Source: Planctomycetota bacterium
Lineage (GTDB): Bacteria > Planctomycetota > Phycisphaerae > Phycisphaerales > Phycisphaeraceae
Direction of reading: 5' to 3'
Assembly (NCBI GenBank): GCA_021413865.1
Contig: JAIOPN010000022.1
Location: 1 to 40,184 of the forward strand
Length of the DNA stretch: 40,184 nucleotides
Shown here: positions 4,923 to 34,321 of the stretch, one piece after another
Layout of the letters: every line of letters starts with the position of its first letter
Position numbering within the stretch: position 1 is the first letter of the stretch
Made by a program: the position numbers and the translations under genes
The notes under the pieces: model-generated
Seen by the model: the letters and a program-made list of their open reading frames with translations, nothing else
Databases searched by the model: none
Told to the model about the DNA's origin: nothing

Positions 4923-8555
<3,633 letters not shown>

Positions 8556-8653
8556 GCGTTCCCCTGTTTCTTCGCTTCTGCGTGTACTGGTCGACCCTTG
8601 AATGAATGCCCGTCAGCGTCCGTACCGGCGGGGAGAATTACACTATTACCGAT

Positions 8654-9571
8654 TTAGCCGTGTGGCTTTGCTCGAGGGAACAGCAAATTGCGGCAAGGCT
8701 CTTGTAGTCGCGGAGCTCCACTCAGAAGCCGTATCGCCCAATCAAAATTGTTGATTTCGGCGTAAAGAAATCTTTCCGATCCATGCAACTGGAATGCTCG
8801 AAAGATATTTACTCGTGTTGCTTTAACCTGTGCCGCCCGGCCGCTCCCATCCCACATAATTTCGCGTAAATAATCGTCAGATACGGACGATCGGGGGCAC
8901 ATCAGCCACAACGAAAGCGTAGAACTAATTGGACAGATCAACTCAGTGCCCCGCACCTTAAGCCCGCAATTAATCCGTCCGTTTCCTTTGCGAAGCTCTT
9001 CCTTATTAAAAAATGAAATCCACGAATCGCTAAGCCAAAATGGATAGCTTCTAGGGGTTTCAACCAACACCCATTTCTTTTCGCGAAGCGGCGGCATCAG
9101 ATTTCGCCATGCTTCACCCTTCAAGTAGCCTGCAAACAGGGATTGAGTAACAAAATCAATCGTGCTGCTAGGTGTCGATGGATCTGCCGCCGTAACAAAA
9201 CCCTGAATATCAGCTTTGGTAATCGGAGTGCGTGCAATGTGGCAGGCGACATAGCTCGCCAGAGACGTTTTTTCATCTTCGCTTAAGTTCGCCAAGCTTG
9301 AAGTCTGTTTGATCTTACTCAATACCTGCCCAACATCACTCTCGCTCTGCGTTAGCACCCCGTCCGCGCCAGATGCTCCGGCCCCATGAATTATTGAATC
9401 GTAATACCCGCACTCAGCACCCACGGCATCAACCGTCGTTAGTTCGGCTTGCAGAGTTGTCTTATCAAAACGATAGATTTTTCTATCTCGTTTGGTGCCG
9501 CGACCAAATCCGCGCAACAAAAGCCTTGGCGTAATGTGCTGATAGGTCGGGTTGTCTAAGCAAGTCTGCAC
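8654..9571 (-). CDS. DUF4238 domain protein
   Basis: A 305-residue protein. A GTG start at 9571 is supported by AGGAA about 7 bases upstream and by the family's opening pattern (here NPTYQHITPRLLLRGFG, compared with the usual 'HyvPqfyLr.F'). DUF4238 proteins have no established activity and some occur in defence or accessory contexts. The gene begins 27 bp after the dcd stop, in the same frame as dcd, and ends 98 bp before nrdJ. Its codons are clearly AT-richer than dcd or nrdJ, with many AAA, ATT and TTA-type codons. It therefore looks like a later insertion into a nucleotide-metabolism operon. No frameshift or internal stop was seen, so it is probably functional. Confidence 0.75.
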   Translation of the reverse strand: MQTCLDNPTYQHITPRLLLRGFGRGTKRDRKIYRFDKTTLQAELTTVDAVGAECGYYDSIIHGAGASGADGVLTQSESDVGQVLSKIKQTSSLANLSEDEKTSLASYVACHIARTPITKADIQGFVTAADPSTPSSTIDFVTQSLFAGYLKGEAWRNLMPPLREKKWVLVETPRSYPFWLSDSWISFFNKEELRKGNGRINCGLKVRGTELICPISSTLSLWLMCPRSSVSDDYLREIMWDGSGRAAQVKATRVNIFRAFQLHGSERFLYAEINNFDWAIRLLSGAPRLQEPCRNLLFPRAKPHG

Positions 9572-9598
9572 AGGCCGTTCCTGGGTTCCAATCGAATC

Positions 9599-10171
9599 TC
9601 AATCCACCTTCGGCAGCACAAGCCCCTTCTGGTTCTGGTACTTCCCGTTCTTGTCCGCGTAGCTCACGGCGCAGACCCGGTCGGCCTTGAGGAAGATCAT
9701 CTGGGCGATGCCCTCGTTGGCGTAGATCTTGGCGGGGAGCGGCGTGGTGTTGCTGATCTCGATGGTGACCTTGCCCCGCCACTCGGGCTCCAGGGGGGTG
9801 ACGTTGACGATGATGCCGCAGCGGGCGTAGGTGGACTTGCCGACGCAGATGGCCAGCACGTCGCGCGGGATGCGGAACTCCTCGACGGTCTCCGCCAGGG
9901 CGAAGGAGTTGGGCGGGACGATGATGTGGTCGCGCCCCGTGGCCTGGGTATCGACGGTGATGAAGGAGCTGTCGTCGAAGTGTTTGGGATCGACGATGGA
10001 GGAGCCGCCGTGCGCGGGGGCGTTGGTGAAGATCTTGAAGAGTGTGCCGACGCGGACGTCGTAGCCGTAGGAGGAGACGCCGAAGGAGACCTTGCCGGCG
10101 CGCTTGATGTTTTCCTCGAAGGGCTCGATGGGGACGAGTTCACGGATCTGGGTGTCGCAAAGAACGCTCAT
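9599..10171 (-). CDS. dcd: dCTP deaminase
   Basis: Deaminates dCTP to dUTP (or dUMP in bifunctional members), supplying dTTP synthesis. The 190-residue length is typical. [12 protein letters not shown] (31-42), [20 protein letters not shown] (111-130) and KVTIEISN (134-141) are the family motifs. Glu138 sits at the position of the catalytic glutamate of the E. coli enzyme. The ATG at 10171 is preceded by GAGGG, 5 bases away. dcd heads a minus-strand group with the DUF4238 gene and nrdJ. A 320-nt leader separates it from a putative NrdR-controlled promoter. The sequence alone does not settle whether it is mono- or bifunctional (with dUTPase activity). Confidence 0.95.
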
Positions 10172-29321: not shown

Positions 29322-31226
29322 ATGGCCCGACGATTCATCCCATCCTGGCGACGCCTGATGCTCAGCATGACCCTGCTGGCGCTGATCCTGCTCGTCGCCT
29401 CCTGGTTCGCCAAGCCCTACCTGGTCCGCTGGCGCACGCTCAACAACCTCGACTCCGACATCCCCGCGCAGCGCGAGCTGGCGCTGAACTACGTTTACCG
29501 CGCCGGCGCCAACGACCCCTCCGTGCTGCAAGGCGCGATCAACCGCATGGATCGCCTCCGCGACCCGCACTTCGCGAGCGTGATGCTGCTCTTCGACCGC
29601 ATGGGCAAATGGCGTCGGCCGCTGATCCCGCCCGGGCCCTGGCTGCGCTGGCTGGAGGTGATCGCGGCGGACAAGGACGCCAAGGCGCGCATCATCGCCG
29701 CGCAGCGCATGGCCGACCTGGCGGACATGCCCGGCGAGCCCCGGGTCATCGCCATGCTCGAACGCCTGATCGGCGACGAAAAGGAGGACGTGCGCTACAA
29801 CGCGATGATCGCCGCCGCCGAGCTCTGGGCCGGCGAGCGGAAGTCCCCCGTGCTGCGCGGCATCGTCGCCCGGGCCACCGGCGACGCCAACGCCGAGATC
29901 GCGCGGCAGGCGTGGATTTTCCTGGGCCTGATGGGCGTGCCCGACGGCCTCAAGTCCGACTGGCGCAAGACCGCCCCGCGCGCGGCGCTGCCCATGTTCT
30001 GGGCGGTGACGCGCGCGAGCCCGACCGCCGCCGGCCCCGCGCTCGAGGCGGCGCGCGACGCAAGCACGCCCGCCGCGCTCCGCGCCGAGGCGGTCTTCGC
30101 CCTGGCCTACAGCCGCAGCCCGGACGCCGCCGACGCCCTGCTCGCCATCCTGCACAAGCCGATCGACGGCTCGCTCAGCGAAGAGGACGCCGCGCTGCTC
30201 TGGCGCGCCGTGCTGGCCAGCGGCGCCATCACCGACCCGGCCCGCGCCAGCGGCGCGATGCTCGACATCCAGCGCATCGCCGAGCAGGCGGCCGCCAAGG
30301 CATACCCCAACGACCCTGCGCTCGCGCCGCTCGCCGTCGCGGCGGCCTACCGATTGGGCACGCCGCTCACCTTCAAGCCCAGCGACGCCATCCCCGCCGA
30401 CGCCGACCAGCGCGCCGCCTTCGCCGCGCTGGCCGCCGCGGAATCGACCAACGCCTCCGCCAAGCCACCGCCGCTCTACCCCGATTCACCCGGCATCTAC
30501 CGCCTCGCCGTCGTCGAACGGCAGTCCGCCTCTTTTTCCCCCGCGCTGCTCGACGACGTCTTCGGCTCCGACGACGCCGTGCTGCGCGACCAGGCCTGCC
30601 TCGTCGCCGCGACCAGGCTGAACGCCAAGGAGAATGAATCGCTGGCGCGCCGCCTGCTCCTGAGTTTCGACGACAACGAGCTGCGCTCCGGTGCGGTGCT
30701 CGCCGGCCTCACCGGTGCGCGGCCGCGCGGCCGCTCCAACGACGCCCCGGACCCCGCCGCGGAGTTCGACCTGCTCCCCAGGCGCGGCGAGATCGAGGAC
30801 GACTGGCTCGTCAAGCAGGTGCTCCTGCTCGCCCTCTGGATGCAGGGCCGCAACCCCGACCTCGACAACGCCAAGGTGCACAACCTCCTCACGCGCAGCG
30901 ACCTGCCCGGCACCACGATCCTGCTGGCGATGCTCCACAAGCGGGACCACGCGGCCTTCGAGTACCTGCTCAACCCGCGCGGCGAGCCGCGCATGGACCT
31001 GACCGACCTCTTCATCCACAAACGCTGGTGGCGCGTCTTCAAACACTACCTGCCCAAAGACGCCCCGCTGGACCTCTGGCTCTGGGCCGACACGGAGGTG
31101 CAGCAGTTCCAGATCGACGTGCTGCGCAACTGGTATTTGCTCGAACGCCGCAGACTCGGCGGCGGCGCCCCGGCGGAGATTCAGGCGGAAGAAGAGCCGG
31201 CCTCCCAGCCCGCGACGCGCCCGTGA
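29322..31226 (+). CDS. membrane-anchored HEAT-repeat-like protein
   Basis: A 634-residue protein. One transmembrane helix near residues 11-31 (LMLSMTLLALILLVASW) follows a basic start, so the bulk is probably exported. Repeated helical pairs rich in Ala, Leu, Arg and Asp cover about 45-330 (for example RIIAAQRMADLADMPGEPRV, EDVRYNAMIAAAELWAGE and LRAEAVFALAYSRSPDAADA), as in HEAT or TPR-like solenoids. The C-terminal 250 residues are less regular and end in a Glu/Ala/Pro tail. No catalytic motif is seen. Such proteins usually bind other proteins. ATG 29322 lacks a clear ribosome binding site. An AT-rich cassette begins 12 bp after the stop. Confidence 0.6.
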   Translation: MARRFIPSWRRLMLSMTLLALILLVASWFAKPYLVRWRTLNNLDSDIPAQRELALNYVYRAGANDPSVLQGAINRMDRLRDPHFASVMLLFDRMGKWRRPLIPPGPWLRWLEVIAADKDAKARIIAAQRMADLADMPGEPRVIAMLERLIGDEKEDVRYNAMIAAAELWAGERKSPVLRGIVARATGDANAEIARQAWIFLGLMGVPDGLKSDWRKTAPRAALPMFWAVTRASPTAAGPALEAARDASTPAALRAEAVFALAYSRSPDAADALLAILHKPIDGSLSEEDAALLWRAVLASGAITDPARASGAMLDIQRIAEQAAAKAYPNDPALAPLAVAAAYRLGTPLTFKPSDAIPADADQRAAFAALAAAESTNASAKPPPLYPDSPGIYRLAVVERQSASFSPALLDDVFGSDDAVLRDQACLVAATRLNAKENESLARRLLLSFDDNELRSGAVLAGLTGARPRGRSNDAPDPAAEFDLLPRRGEIEDDWLVKQVLLLALWMQGRNPDLDNAKVHNLLTRSDLPGTTILLAMLHKRDHAAFEYLLNPRGEPRMDLTDLFIHKRWWRVFKHYLPKDAPLDLWLWADTEVQQFQIDVLRNWYLLERRRLGGGAPAEIQAEEEPASQPATRP

Positions 31227-31345
31227 TACCCTCTCCCCCCCGGCCTAAATATATGTACTTATCCCCTTTTCTTCCTCGCGAAAGCTTCCGAAGGGTAGGA
31301 CAAGGCCCCGAGAATCCCGCAGTAACGGACTTTAAGGAGGTAGGA

Positions 31346-31528
31346 GTGATAGCAAGTCACGGCGCTATTGGCGGCGGACCGTGGGACAATCGGGGATTTG
31401 AAGATCGTATCGGCGCTATAACTTCGGACAAAGCGATGCGGCGAGCAGCCCGTATTACCGGAATGAGAATTACTGAGATGTCCTCGGCTGATTACGGTTA
31501 CGAGCTTGAGAAGTGGGCCAAACCATAA
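31346..31528 (+). CDS. small hypothetical protein in the AT-rich cassette
   Basis: The GTG at 31346 is chosen because TTTAAGGAGG, a near-perfect ribosome binding site, ends 5 bases before it. The product is 60 residues: VIASHGAIGGGPWDNRGFED followed by RIGAITSDKAMRRAARITGM and a charged end (YGYELEKWAKP). An ATG at 31253 in the same frame would give 91 residues but lies in the inverted-repeat end. No family is recognised. It has a Gly-rich start, a helical centre and no membrane segment. Unusually for this region, the ribosome binding site is stronger than those of neighbouring housekeeping genes. Confidence 0.5.
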   Translation: MIASHGAIGGGPWDNRGFEDRIGAITSDKAMRRAARITGMRITEMSSADYGYELEKWAKP

Positions 31529-31541
31529 CTTATATTAATCC

Positions 31542-31847
31542 ATGATAATGAGACGATTATTCTTTGGATGTTTCTTGCTGTCACTAGCATCCTTGCTCGG
31601 CGGTGCTGTAATAATCTCGGTCGTCGACAGGCTAAATCCACCTCCTGGCGCAGGAGCGGACTGGGGAATGGGAGTTACGATGGGAGTAATTGGTGTGTCA
31701 GGTATTTTGGCCGCTGTTTGTTTTCTAATTGCATGCTTTGCTGGAATTACGGCTGCCGTGCAGGGATCTCTGGATAAAGGGTGGCTGGTACTGCACCTCA
31801 TAGGAACTCTGGTGGTAGCTGTATTGGCGGCGGCGATTGCGCTTTAG
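31542..31847 (+). CDS. small membrane protein in the AT-rich cassette
   Basis: A 101-residue protein with three hydrophobic segments: LFFGCFLLSLASLLGGAVII (about 6-25), MGVTMGVIGVSGILAAVCFL (about 43-62, extending to 72) and WLVLHLIGTLVVAVLAAAIA (about 81-100). A short polar loop after the first (DRLNPPPGAGADW) is probably exposed. The start is ATG 31542 or 31548. The gene follows the previous one by 13 bp on the same strand, so they may be co-transcribed and act together, as membrane and soluble partners sometimes do. No family is recognised. Confidence 0.6.
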   Translation: MIMRRLFFGCFLLSLASLLGGAVIISVVDRLNPPPGAGADWGMGVTMGVIGVSGILAAVCFLIACFAGITAAVQGSLDKGWLVLHLIGTLVVAVLAAAIAL

Positions 31848-31864
31848 AAGTGGAAAAGGGATAG

Positions 31865-31899
31865 GTACATTTACCCGGCGTAAGTACATTTACCCGGCG
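31865..31899 (+). repeat. tandem 16-bp repeat at the cassette right end
   Basis: GTACATTTACCCGGCG occurs at 31865-31880 and again at 31884-31899, separated by TAA. The first copy is part of the right inverted-repeat end. The duplication may mark a boundary or a recombination scar. Confidence 0.8.
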
Positions 31900-31906
31900 G
31901 TGATTT

Positions 31907-32019
31907 CCCATAGCCCCCGGCTCCGCCGGGGGGGGTTCCGCGAGAGATCACCAACACCCTGCGCGCCGCAAGTTCGTGCATCCAACAAGAACCCCCCTGG
32001 CCGAGCCGGGGGCTATGGG
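31907..32019. repeat. REPIN-like element, family S, copy 4
   Basis: The inverted ends CCCATAGCCCCCGGCTCCGC and GAGCCGGGGGCTATGGG have the same orientation as the copy at 29155 (centre with GAGATCACC ... GCCGCAAGTTCGTGCATCC). It begins 7 bp after the tandem repeat and ends 13 bp before the helicase stop codon. Confidence 0.9.
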
Positions 32020-32032
32020 ACGGAGCGTGTGG

Positions 32033-34120
32033 TTACGGCGGCGAGCCCGCCGGCGACGCCCCCGTGACGTGCCTCACCGGCAGGTTGGGCAGCGCGGCGA
32101 TGAAGTGTTTGCCGTAGCTCTTGGTGAGGATGCGGCTGTCGAGCACGACGACCGTGCCGTGGTCCGTGCGCGAGCGGATCAGCCGGCCGAACCCCTGCTT
32201 GAATTTCAATATCGCCTCGGGCAGCGAGTACTCCGCGAAGGGGTTCCCGCCCCGCGCCTTGATGCGGTCCATCCGCGCCTCGATGAGCGGGCGGTCGGGC
32301 ACCGCGAAGGGCAGCCGCGTGATGACCACGTTGCGCAGCGCCTCGCCCTGCACGTCCACCCCCTGCCAGAAGGAGTCGGTGCCCAGGAGCACGCTGCGGC
32401 GGTCGCCGCGGAAGCGCTCCAGCAGCGCGGTGCGCTGCGTGCCGTCGCTCTGCACGAGCATCGGGATGCCCCGCGCCTCCATGAACGGCTTGAGCCAGTC
32501 GGCGGTGCGCTTGAGCAGGTCGTAGCTGGTGAAGAGCACGAACGCCCCGCCGTCGGAGCGGTCCAGGTGATCGAGCAACCGCGGCGTCATGCGCTCGAAG
32601 TGCGACGGGTCCGAGGGCTCGGGGAGCGACTTCTCGATGAGCAGCTCCGCCTGCGTGGAATAATCGAACGGCGAGCCGAGCAGGAGCGTGACGGCGTCGT
32701 CGCAGCCGATGCGGGATTCGAGGTGGGCGAAGGCGCGGTGCTCCGCCGCCGCGGCGCGGGCGGGCTGCGCCGGCGCGTGGCCGGTCGCGGCGGTGGCGAG
32801 CGTGGCGGAGGTGAGCACGACGCCGATGGGCTTGTCGCGGGCGCTGCGGGCGTTGAACAGCCGTTCGCGCAGCAGCGGGCCCACGTCGATCGGGGAGCAG
32901 CACATCTTCACGCGCCGCGTCCGCCCCTTCTCGCCGACCTCGACCCAGTACACGCTCTCGGGCTGCGTCTGCTCGACGATCGCACGCAGCGACGCGGCCG
33001 CCCCCTCGCACCGGCCGGCGTAGCCCGAGACCTCGAAGCGGTCCGCCTCCTCCGTCGCGTTGTCGCGCACGACCTTGAGCAGGATCACCAGGTCGTCCAG
33101 CGCCGGGGAGAGGCCGTTCTCCACCACGTTGGGGTCGTTGATCCGCCCGTTGCTCCGGCCGCGCGTCAGGTGGTAATTCACCAGTTGATCGAAGAACGCC
33201 TCGGCGGCGCGCATCGCGTCCTCCACCGCGTGGATGGCCTTGTTGAGCACGCCCTGCGCGTCGTCGCTCAGCCGGTGCTCCAGCGAGGGCAGGAACCCGC
33301 GCCCGGTGCGCTCCGCCAGCAGGCTGTGCAGCAGGAACCGCACCTGCGACTCCGAACAGGTGATGCCGAAGTGCTCGCTGGCGACGTCCTCGATGGTGTG
33401 CGCCTCGTCGAGGATGACGTGGTCGTACGGCGGGAGGAAGCCCACGCCCTGCGCCCGCAGCGCCAGGTCGGCGAAGAAGAGCGCGTGGTTGACGATCAGC
33501 AGGTCGCCGTTCTCCATCCGCCGGCGGGCGCGCTGGTAGAAACATTTTTCATACGTCGGGCAGCGCCGGCCCATGCAGTTGCCCGCGTCGCTCTGCGCCT
33601 TGTCCCACACGGAGGAGCGTTCCAATGGCGGCAGCGTCGCCAGCGAGCCGTCGTCGGTCTTGTAGGCCCAGTCCTCGATCGTGTGCAGCGAGCGGATCAT
33701 CTCCGGCTCGACGAAGAGCTGGTCCTGCCGCTGCGAGGTCATCGCCAGGCGGCGCAGCGAGACGTAGTTGCCCCGCCCCTTGACCAGCACGGCGGAGAAC
33801 TCGTCCTCCATCACCGCCTGCAAAAGCGGGATGTCCTTGGCGATGAGCTGCTCCTGCAGCGCGATGGTGTGCGTCGAGATGATCACACGCTCGCGGTTTT
33901 CCGGCGGGCTGTTGACGATGCGCTCGATGGCGGGGAGCAGGTAGGCGAACGATTTCCCGACGCCCGTGCCCGCCTCGGCGATGAGGTGGTGGCCGCTCGC
34001 CAGCGCGGCGCGCACGGACTCGAGCATGCGCGTCTGCTCGGGGCGCTGCTCGTAGCGCCCGTCCAGCCTGCGGGCGATGGGGCCATCGGGGGCGAGGATG
34101 TGGAGTGGGTCGAGGGGCAT
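32033..34120 (-). CDS. dinG: DinG/XPD-like superfamily 2 DNA helicase
   Basis: An ATP-dependent 5'-3' DNA helicase, probably for R-loop or damaged-DNA processing. ATG 34120 ([14 protein letters not shown]) has AAGGA 6 bases upstream; the longer frame enters a repeat. The 695-residue protein shows Walker [10 protein letters not shown] (49-57), DEAH (238-241), VVLTSATL, and [12 protein letters not shown] with [14 protein letters not shown] (motifs V and VI). The iron-sulfur region has [13 protein letters not shown] (Cys182, 187, 193). The first cluster Cys, normally in 'KGRxNYLC', is Ser121 here ([11 protein letters not shown]). The cluster may therefore be absent or bound by three Cys plus another ligand. 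The gene follows rplL on the same strand after a terminator. Confidence 0.85.
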
Positions 34121-34189
34121 CGCGTCCTTGCCGGGGGATTGTAGCGGGACGGGCGTGCTAAGCCGCGAGGGGCGGGCCCGGGTTCTTAT

Positions 34190-34321
34190 CGGGTGCCACG
34201 CTGCATCCCGAAGGGTGCGGTGTGCGGAGAACAGAGGACATCCGATCTCGGCACGGATCGGCATGAACTACGTCGGTCGCGGAGAAGACACACCGCACCC
34301 TTCGGGATGCAGTGTGGCACC
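34190..34321. repeat. REPIN-like element, family T, copy 2
   Basis: Two 34-bp arms with one mismatch: GGGTGCCACGCTGCATCCCG continuing AAGGGTGCGGTGTG, and its complement at 34288-34321. The centre has a small hairpin (CCGATC/GATCGG). It lies directly upstream of the helicase start, between it and the rplL terminator. Confidence 0.9.

Follow-up and report, generated by a model that had tools for sequence, protein, structure and literature searches.

Mobile insertion cassettes (MICs) lack a transposase: inverted ends like those of an IS enclose passenger genes, and the enzyme is presumably supplied from elsewhere. Their ends are those of DDE-type ISs and have the same polarity as in the parent IS. 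In TIRtron/TIRYT elements, inverted repeats with the motif GGGGWSAS flank genes for Y1 transposases of ~230 aa, and such repeats also occur as single and dimer copies, according to excerpts of two descriptions (Di Nocera et al. 2013, PMC3733652; Quentin et al. 2018, PMC6006769). REPINs and RAYTs likewise comprise inverted repeat pairs linked to Y1 transposases, as stated in part of a third source (PMC8266576), while orphan rhs-CT/rhsI and cdiA-CT/cdiI modules are treated in an extract of a fourth (Poole et al. 2011, PMC3150448). No description of cargo cassettes with RAYT/TIRYT ends was found in the open-access full-text literature, as far as its searchable extracts reach.

Here we describe an AT-rich insert (31250–31899) in the window, the whole 40,184-nucleotide stretch of DNA that was analysed, which is contig C19 of a planctomycete draft genome of 4.37 Mb in 67 contigs. 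The insert is bounded by imperfect inverted repeats, and part of the right end is repeated in tandem. Its features and flanks are as follows.

29322..31226, plus strand: left host gene, a HEAT-repeat protein (flank, outside the cassette)
31250..31271, minus strand: left terminal repeat, its inner side GGGG pointing into the cassette; one difference from GAAAAGGGGATAAGTACATTTA
31304..31528, plus strand: truncated 3′ tail of a Rhs/hydrolase-like gene; contains ORF1 (31346–31528)
31542..31847, plus strand: ORF2, a 101-aa hydrophobic protein; GC3 0.446; possibly with an orphan immunity role
31852..31880, plus strand: right terminal repeat, an inverted match to the left end
31881..31899, plus strand: second, incomplete copy of the right repeat, covering its outer part, in tandem (repeat search, family D2)
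32033..34264, minus strand: right host gene, a helicase that we take to be DinG-like (flank, outside the cassette), convergent with the HEAT-repeat gene

Local alignment of the two ends (left 31250–31271, right 31852–31880) gave a score of 16.5. None of the dinucleotide shuffles, 1000 in number, scored as high, and among 5000 placements at the same spacing within the window 6 did; the likeness of the ends is thus above chance. The tandem copy at the right end (31862–31880 versus 31881–31899) agrees at 95% over 19 nt. GC content is 0.506 inside the insert versus 0.713 in the 1.5-kb flanks, and an AT-island caller that was blind to repeats drew the boundaries at 31246–31892. GC3 is 0.51 in the extended ORF1 and 0.45 in ORF2, as against 0.94 and 0.95 in the two neighbour genes, and the cargo is foreign in composition. 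The ORF list shows no transposase ORF inside the insert. These observations bear out an earlier note on this DNA, which had described inverted ends, a tandem copy of the right end, AT-rich DNA with a second ORF (ORF2), and no transposase inside. The window also holds a second AT-rich island (8470–9654, GC 0.50), which has no terminal repeats, and, at 31906–32020, two GC-rich inverted arms of 29 nt (93%) with 57 bp between them. These arms belong to a separate repeat family, which has 73 more short matches elsewhere in the genome, many as opposed pairs. An Rfam scan of 31150–32100 gave nothing at the gathering score.

The ends of the insert resemble RAYT/TIRYT-type repeats (AAAAGGGG...). Allowing up to one mismatch, AAAAGGGGWYARRWRCM matched 18 times in the genome versus once for a reversed-pattern control. 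The earlier note had held that ends unique in the genome would speak against a cassette: the left-end motif is not unique, whereas the exact right-end 16-mer GTACATTTACCCGGCG occurs in the genome only at its two window copies. The next best right-end match (C17:7226, one mismatch) lies in coding DNA, by eye ruvB, and was set aside. The exact repeat was absent from the viral contigs searched.

Repeats of this family flank a Y1 transposase gene in the genome that is spread over contig ends: its C-terminal part lies at the end of C11 and its N-terminal part at the start of C6 and of C64, and the parts have 57 bases in common. Inverted repeats also flank a Y1 gene in another genome (G030, L141); no Y1 gene lies between the window's pair. 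On contig C13, a repeat of the type seen in the window borders the C-terminal remnant of a transposase, which has 42–52% identity to three intact transposases over 61–71 residues; a truncated transposase is the only one found for this type. In two relatives, a Y1_Tnp gene lies directly outside a cassette: the one at L136 (231 aa) begins 37 bp beyond the right repeat, and the one at L139 (227 aa) begins 42 bp beyond it. These genes fit the enzyme encoded elsewhere that the earlier note had postulated. The polarity of the repeats in transposase units is opposite to that in the cassettes.

Several further repeats were seen in passing. Tandem partial copies of the AAAAGGTG/AAAAGGGG side adjoin repeats at L140, L141, L139, L071 and L074, as if insertion or slippage recurred at that end. 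The best Y1_Tnp gene of the genome (C56:3956; L049 3830–4520) lies, by eye, within another inverted repeat with a GTAG-like tag, apparently of a different repeat family. A single repeat (C4:481835; L073 2900–3357) stands where AT-rich DNA meets a GC-rich gene, and no second one was found in the surrounding 7 kb.

Compared with the described systems, the genome resembles TIRtrons, as far as the available excerpts describe them, in that its repeats of type AAAAGGGGTCAG conform to the motif and stand on either side of a Y1 gene (C11 with C6/C64). Genome repeats other than the window's read GGGGTCAG and fit GGGGWSAS, whereas the left repeat of the window, of type GGGGATAA, departs from it. Unlike in TIRtrons, the polarity of the cassette is reversed and cargo genes lie between the repeats, an arrangement that is absent from the parts of the TIRtron descriptions at hand (PMC3733652; PMC6006769). 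As in REPIN/RAYT systems (PMC8266576, in part), inverted repeat pairs are linked to Y1 transposases, and short opposed pairs of the window's repeat family do occur, for example at C13 135254/135333, 79 bp apart; the 650-bp coding interior of the window cassette and its reverse polarity are unlike the short hairpin of a REPIN. With MICs, the window cassette shares cargo, without a transposase, between inverted IS-like ends. It differs from them in that no autonomous counterpart with matching ends and matching polarity was found, the transposase units here being opposite, and in having ends of the Y1/HUH type rather than the DDE type attributed to MICs. Taken together, the cassettes are probably of the mobile-insertion-cassette kind, as a variant.

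Similar ends surround different cargo elsewhere, as the earlier note had anticipated. Matches to the repeat pattern were present in at least 73 of 201 genomes, many of them single and, in other genomes, equalled by the reversed control. Among the matches listed, 14 neighbouring repeat pairs lie 300–2500 bp apart, comprising 9 inward pairs besides the window, 2 outward pairs and 3 in the same direction; against an expectation of one quarter, 9 inward of 14 has a binomial probability of 0.002, for pairs counted by eye and a test set up after the list was seen. The nine inward pairs and the window fall in four genomes (five in G000, three in G041, and one each in G035 and G032) of three genera in one family. 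One outward pair (G030, L141) encloses a transposase, as judged from comparison with L136; the other (G042, L140) was assigned by reading only. Twenty loci were rescanned, namely 5 inward pairs, 2 outward pairs, 3 loci for synteny, and 10 looser pairs, single repeats or same-direction repeats.

All ten inward pairs, window included, enclose DNA whose AT content exceeds that of the two flanks combined by 0.075 to 0.21. The rescan, which was looser, added an eleventh inward pair (L144, G045; three errors in the left repeat); it is not clearly AT-rich, because its interior GC of 0.58 falls between the 0.64 and 0.55 of its flanks. The interiors of the cassettes are coding, measure 0.3–2.2 kb, and hold genes for LRR, Sel1, ankyrin and FGE-sulfatase proteins together with many that have no family. 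DNA matches between cassettes lie at the ends (18–55 bp), apart from one 20-bp internal match between L070 and L138, and a translated comparison between cassettes gave no match at E 1e-4. Only in the window and L048B does the best AT segment come within ~30 bp of both repeats; elsewhere its edges are off the repeats by up to 487 bp (L138), and by about 60–180 bp at many cassettes. Two cassettes stand in a row on C13 (L048 3480–4924), separated by a short opposed repeat pair (partly by eye); the spacer of this pair is similar to the 3′ end of the transposase remnant next to it, and the pair is possibly a step from transposase unit to miniature element. In G041, the left flanks of two cassettes (L135 66–350 and L136) share ~300 bp at 77% up to the repeat.

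These data bear on whether the repeats are later visitors, that is, whether the AT-rich genes came otherwise and RAYT-type repeats or dimers inserted independently on each side, junctions being tolerant. In 20 control stretches of the genome (400 kb), none of 13 AT-rich islands has these repeats at both edges; thus such repeats are not a general island trait, and repeat-bounded cassettes are a minority of AT-rich inserts. That most AT-rich islands lack the repeats would suit later insertion, as would the whole repeat dimers, rather than single ends, that flank several cassettes (C13, C28, C6) and the unlike repeat types at the two ends of two of the ten cassettes (L048A and L071). However, independent insertions would not be expected to give the constant inward polarity (9 of 14 pairs among the matches listed), nor the near-identical variant ends that occur within one cassette at L138 and L070. 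On balance, we regard later insertion as unlikely.

Alternatively, intergenic segments at convergent junctions might be swapped by homologous recombination via conserved flanks, the repeats being incidental. The L138 site speaks for such turnover. All four congeners in which both of its flanks were found carry other AT-rich genes there, mutually unrelated in DNA comparison, and none of the four has a repeat within four errors; a fifth congener (G048) gave no flank match. Thus, five species of one genus hold five different AT-rich genes (389, 149, 437, 341 and 128 aa; L138 1861–3430, L185, L186, L187 and L188) between the same two convergent genes, a gene-turnover hotspot at which the repeats are clear in one. 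A decayed repeat was indicated in one of eight boundary windows (p 0.003 by shuffling; 0.12 to 0.98 in the others), and decayed repeats are therefore not claimed for the site in general. The L138 gene has an 89% copy elsewhere in G045, where the repeat was not found.

The window insert also lies between convergent genes, and the HEAT-repeat and helicase genes are convergent neighbours in G007, G026 and G029 as well, about 1.2 kb apart in each of the first two and 59 bp apart in the third. Nevertheless, the gaps in G007 and G026 consist of DNA of ordinary GC, and junction turnover leaves the matched repeats at both ends unexplained; it is, in our estimate, unlikely. The comparison of syntenic loci lacking the insert, which the earlier note had proposed, yielded the 59-bp gap of G029, but this is too diverged to serve as an exact empty site. 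No exact empty site was found at these loci, and no target duplication was seen in the flanks by eye.

The coding content of the insert bears on a third possibility, namely that a larger foreign island with RAYT elements shrank by deletion up to the repeat copies, leaving a remnant between two ends. The earlier note had presented ORF1 as a soluble 60-residue ORF with an excellent ribosome binding site. Upstream of the GTG, its frame continues without a stop into the left repeat, and the Shine-Dalgarno-like AAGGAGG (31334–31340) reads as the in-frame codons K-E-V. The 60-aa ORF1 matched the C-terminus of a large ORF in a genome of the same order, G052 (E 5e-4). Moreover, the 74-aa stretch from 31304, which begins 14 residues before the GTG, aligns colinearly with this ORF through the supposed start: 23 of 80 columns are identical (29%; G052 residues 473–552; E 2e-10, single comparison), with 44.3 bits when the upstream residues are included versus 38.1 bits without them. 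The G052 ORF (563 aa) contains a Rhs-associated core (TIGR03696, E 3e-16), and its hydrolase matches lie below Pfam cut-offs. A third such tail, ending ADYGY, was found in G059, where it adjoins an IS630-type transposase (the latter by eye).

Matches to the tail occur in 4 of 392 genomes of the phylum, the own genome included; the context of the fourth, G458, was examined and not found convincing, and it was not taken as a homologue. ORF1 had no second match in its own genome at E 0.001, extended ORF1 had none among PDB sequences at E 5, and a genome contig search with the ORF1 alignment returned solely G052's own sequence. Judged from these alignments, ORF1 is the truncated end of a longer conserved Rhs/hydrolase-like frame; in view of the open upstream frame and the colinear G052 alignment, we reject it as a small gene or toxin–antitoxin partner. 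The case illustrates that the end of a broken gene can be mistaken for a small gene preceded by a good ribosome binding site.

That the ORF1 tail is cut short close to the left repeat would be in keeping with trimming, as would the transposase C-terminal remnant that adjoins repeats at C13 and the partial repeat copies in tandem. Trimming is nonetheless improbable, given that several cassettes (L138, L071 and L070) hold a single gene that looks full-length.

ORF2 has three membrane helices as judged by eye. Its sole convincing homologue, from G034, has 103 aa and aligns at 29% over 90 columns (E 1e-9, single comparison); it stands alone, without these repeats, between ffh-like and glycosyltransferase-like genes (by eye). 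The earlier note had reasoned that relatives with the same two genes but no repeats would count against a cassette: no relative with both was found among the genomes searched, though the distant ORF2 homologue of G034 lacks these repeats. A profile of ORF2 and this homologue had three further weak matches in 392 genomes, one of which was examined and did not convince. Weak profile matches lie in G122, G014, G019, G458 and G447; contexts were examined in the last two, and neither match was taken as a homologue. ORF2 had no second match in its own genome at E 0.001 and none in the genome contig or viral contig searches. Searches of Pfam, NCBIfam, PHROGs and PADLOC with ORF1 and ORF2 gave nothing above cut-off, and ORF2 matched no immunity family; it may be an orphan immunity gene.

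In this respect the cargo is reminiscent of the orphan rhs-CT/rhsI modules, as outlined in the extract available (PMC3150448): a Rhs-type C-terminal fragment without its own start signals is followed by a small gene, possibly for immunity. It is unlike them in that the fragment comprises only about the last 74 residues, with no complete toxin domain and no proven immunity family, and no neighbouring Rhs locus was seen in the window. An intact functional gene pair, such as a toxin–antitoxin module, is hardly tenable: the two ORFs are adjacent on the same strand, 13 bp apart, but ORF1 is the end of a longer conserved frame, which largely refutes it, and neither ORF has a defence or family match. 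The gene pair of the earlier note is thus wrong, because one member is a truncated tail.

We favour the reading, with a probability of about 0.5, that the insert is a non-autonomous, transposase-less, foreign AT-rich cassette between inverted TIRYT/RAYT-type repeats, in the gap of convergent host genes. Inverted and mostly matched ends, constant polarity and unrelated cargo are as a unit with ends predicts. Since the polarity is the reverse of that in the transposase unit, the cassette is best regarded as a segment enclosed by two such elements. A Y1 (HUH) transposase that acts on a pair of inward-polarity repeats would then have captured or moved this segment, much as happens with composite transposons or mobile insertion cassettes. 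The proposal of the earlier note, a non-autonomous unit possibly moved by a RAYT/IS200-like enzyme encoded elsewhere, stands for the cassette anatomy and the fitting enzymes, while movement as a unit is what we infer from them. Several observations count against mobility, namely the reversed polarity, the missing exact empty site and target duplication, the L144 pair, the congeners at the L138 site, the AT-segment edges that fall short of or beyond the repeats, and the unlike ends. The description of TnpAREP proteins as domesticated, in part of one source (PMC8266576), likewise counts against mobilisation.

We tentatively suggest that Y1 (HUH) TIRYT-type transposases in these planctomycetes may mobilise AT-rich single-gene cassettes between two inward repeats. 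If so, a gene-capture system would be based on enzymes that are otherwise known chiefly for multiplying their own repeats, and it would keep gene junctions supplied with orphan genes. RAYT/TIRYT enzymes, which are generally regarded as domesticated and limited to short repeats, would then carry ordinary genes, and the cassettes would offer a testable route for AT-rich orphan genes into GC-rich genomes.
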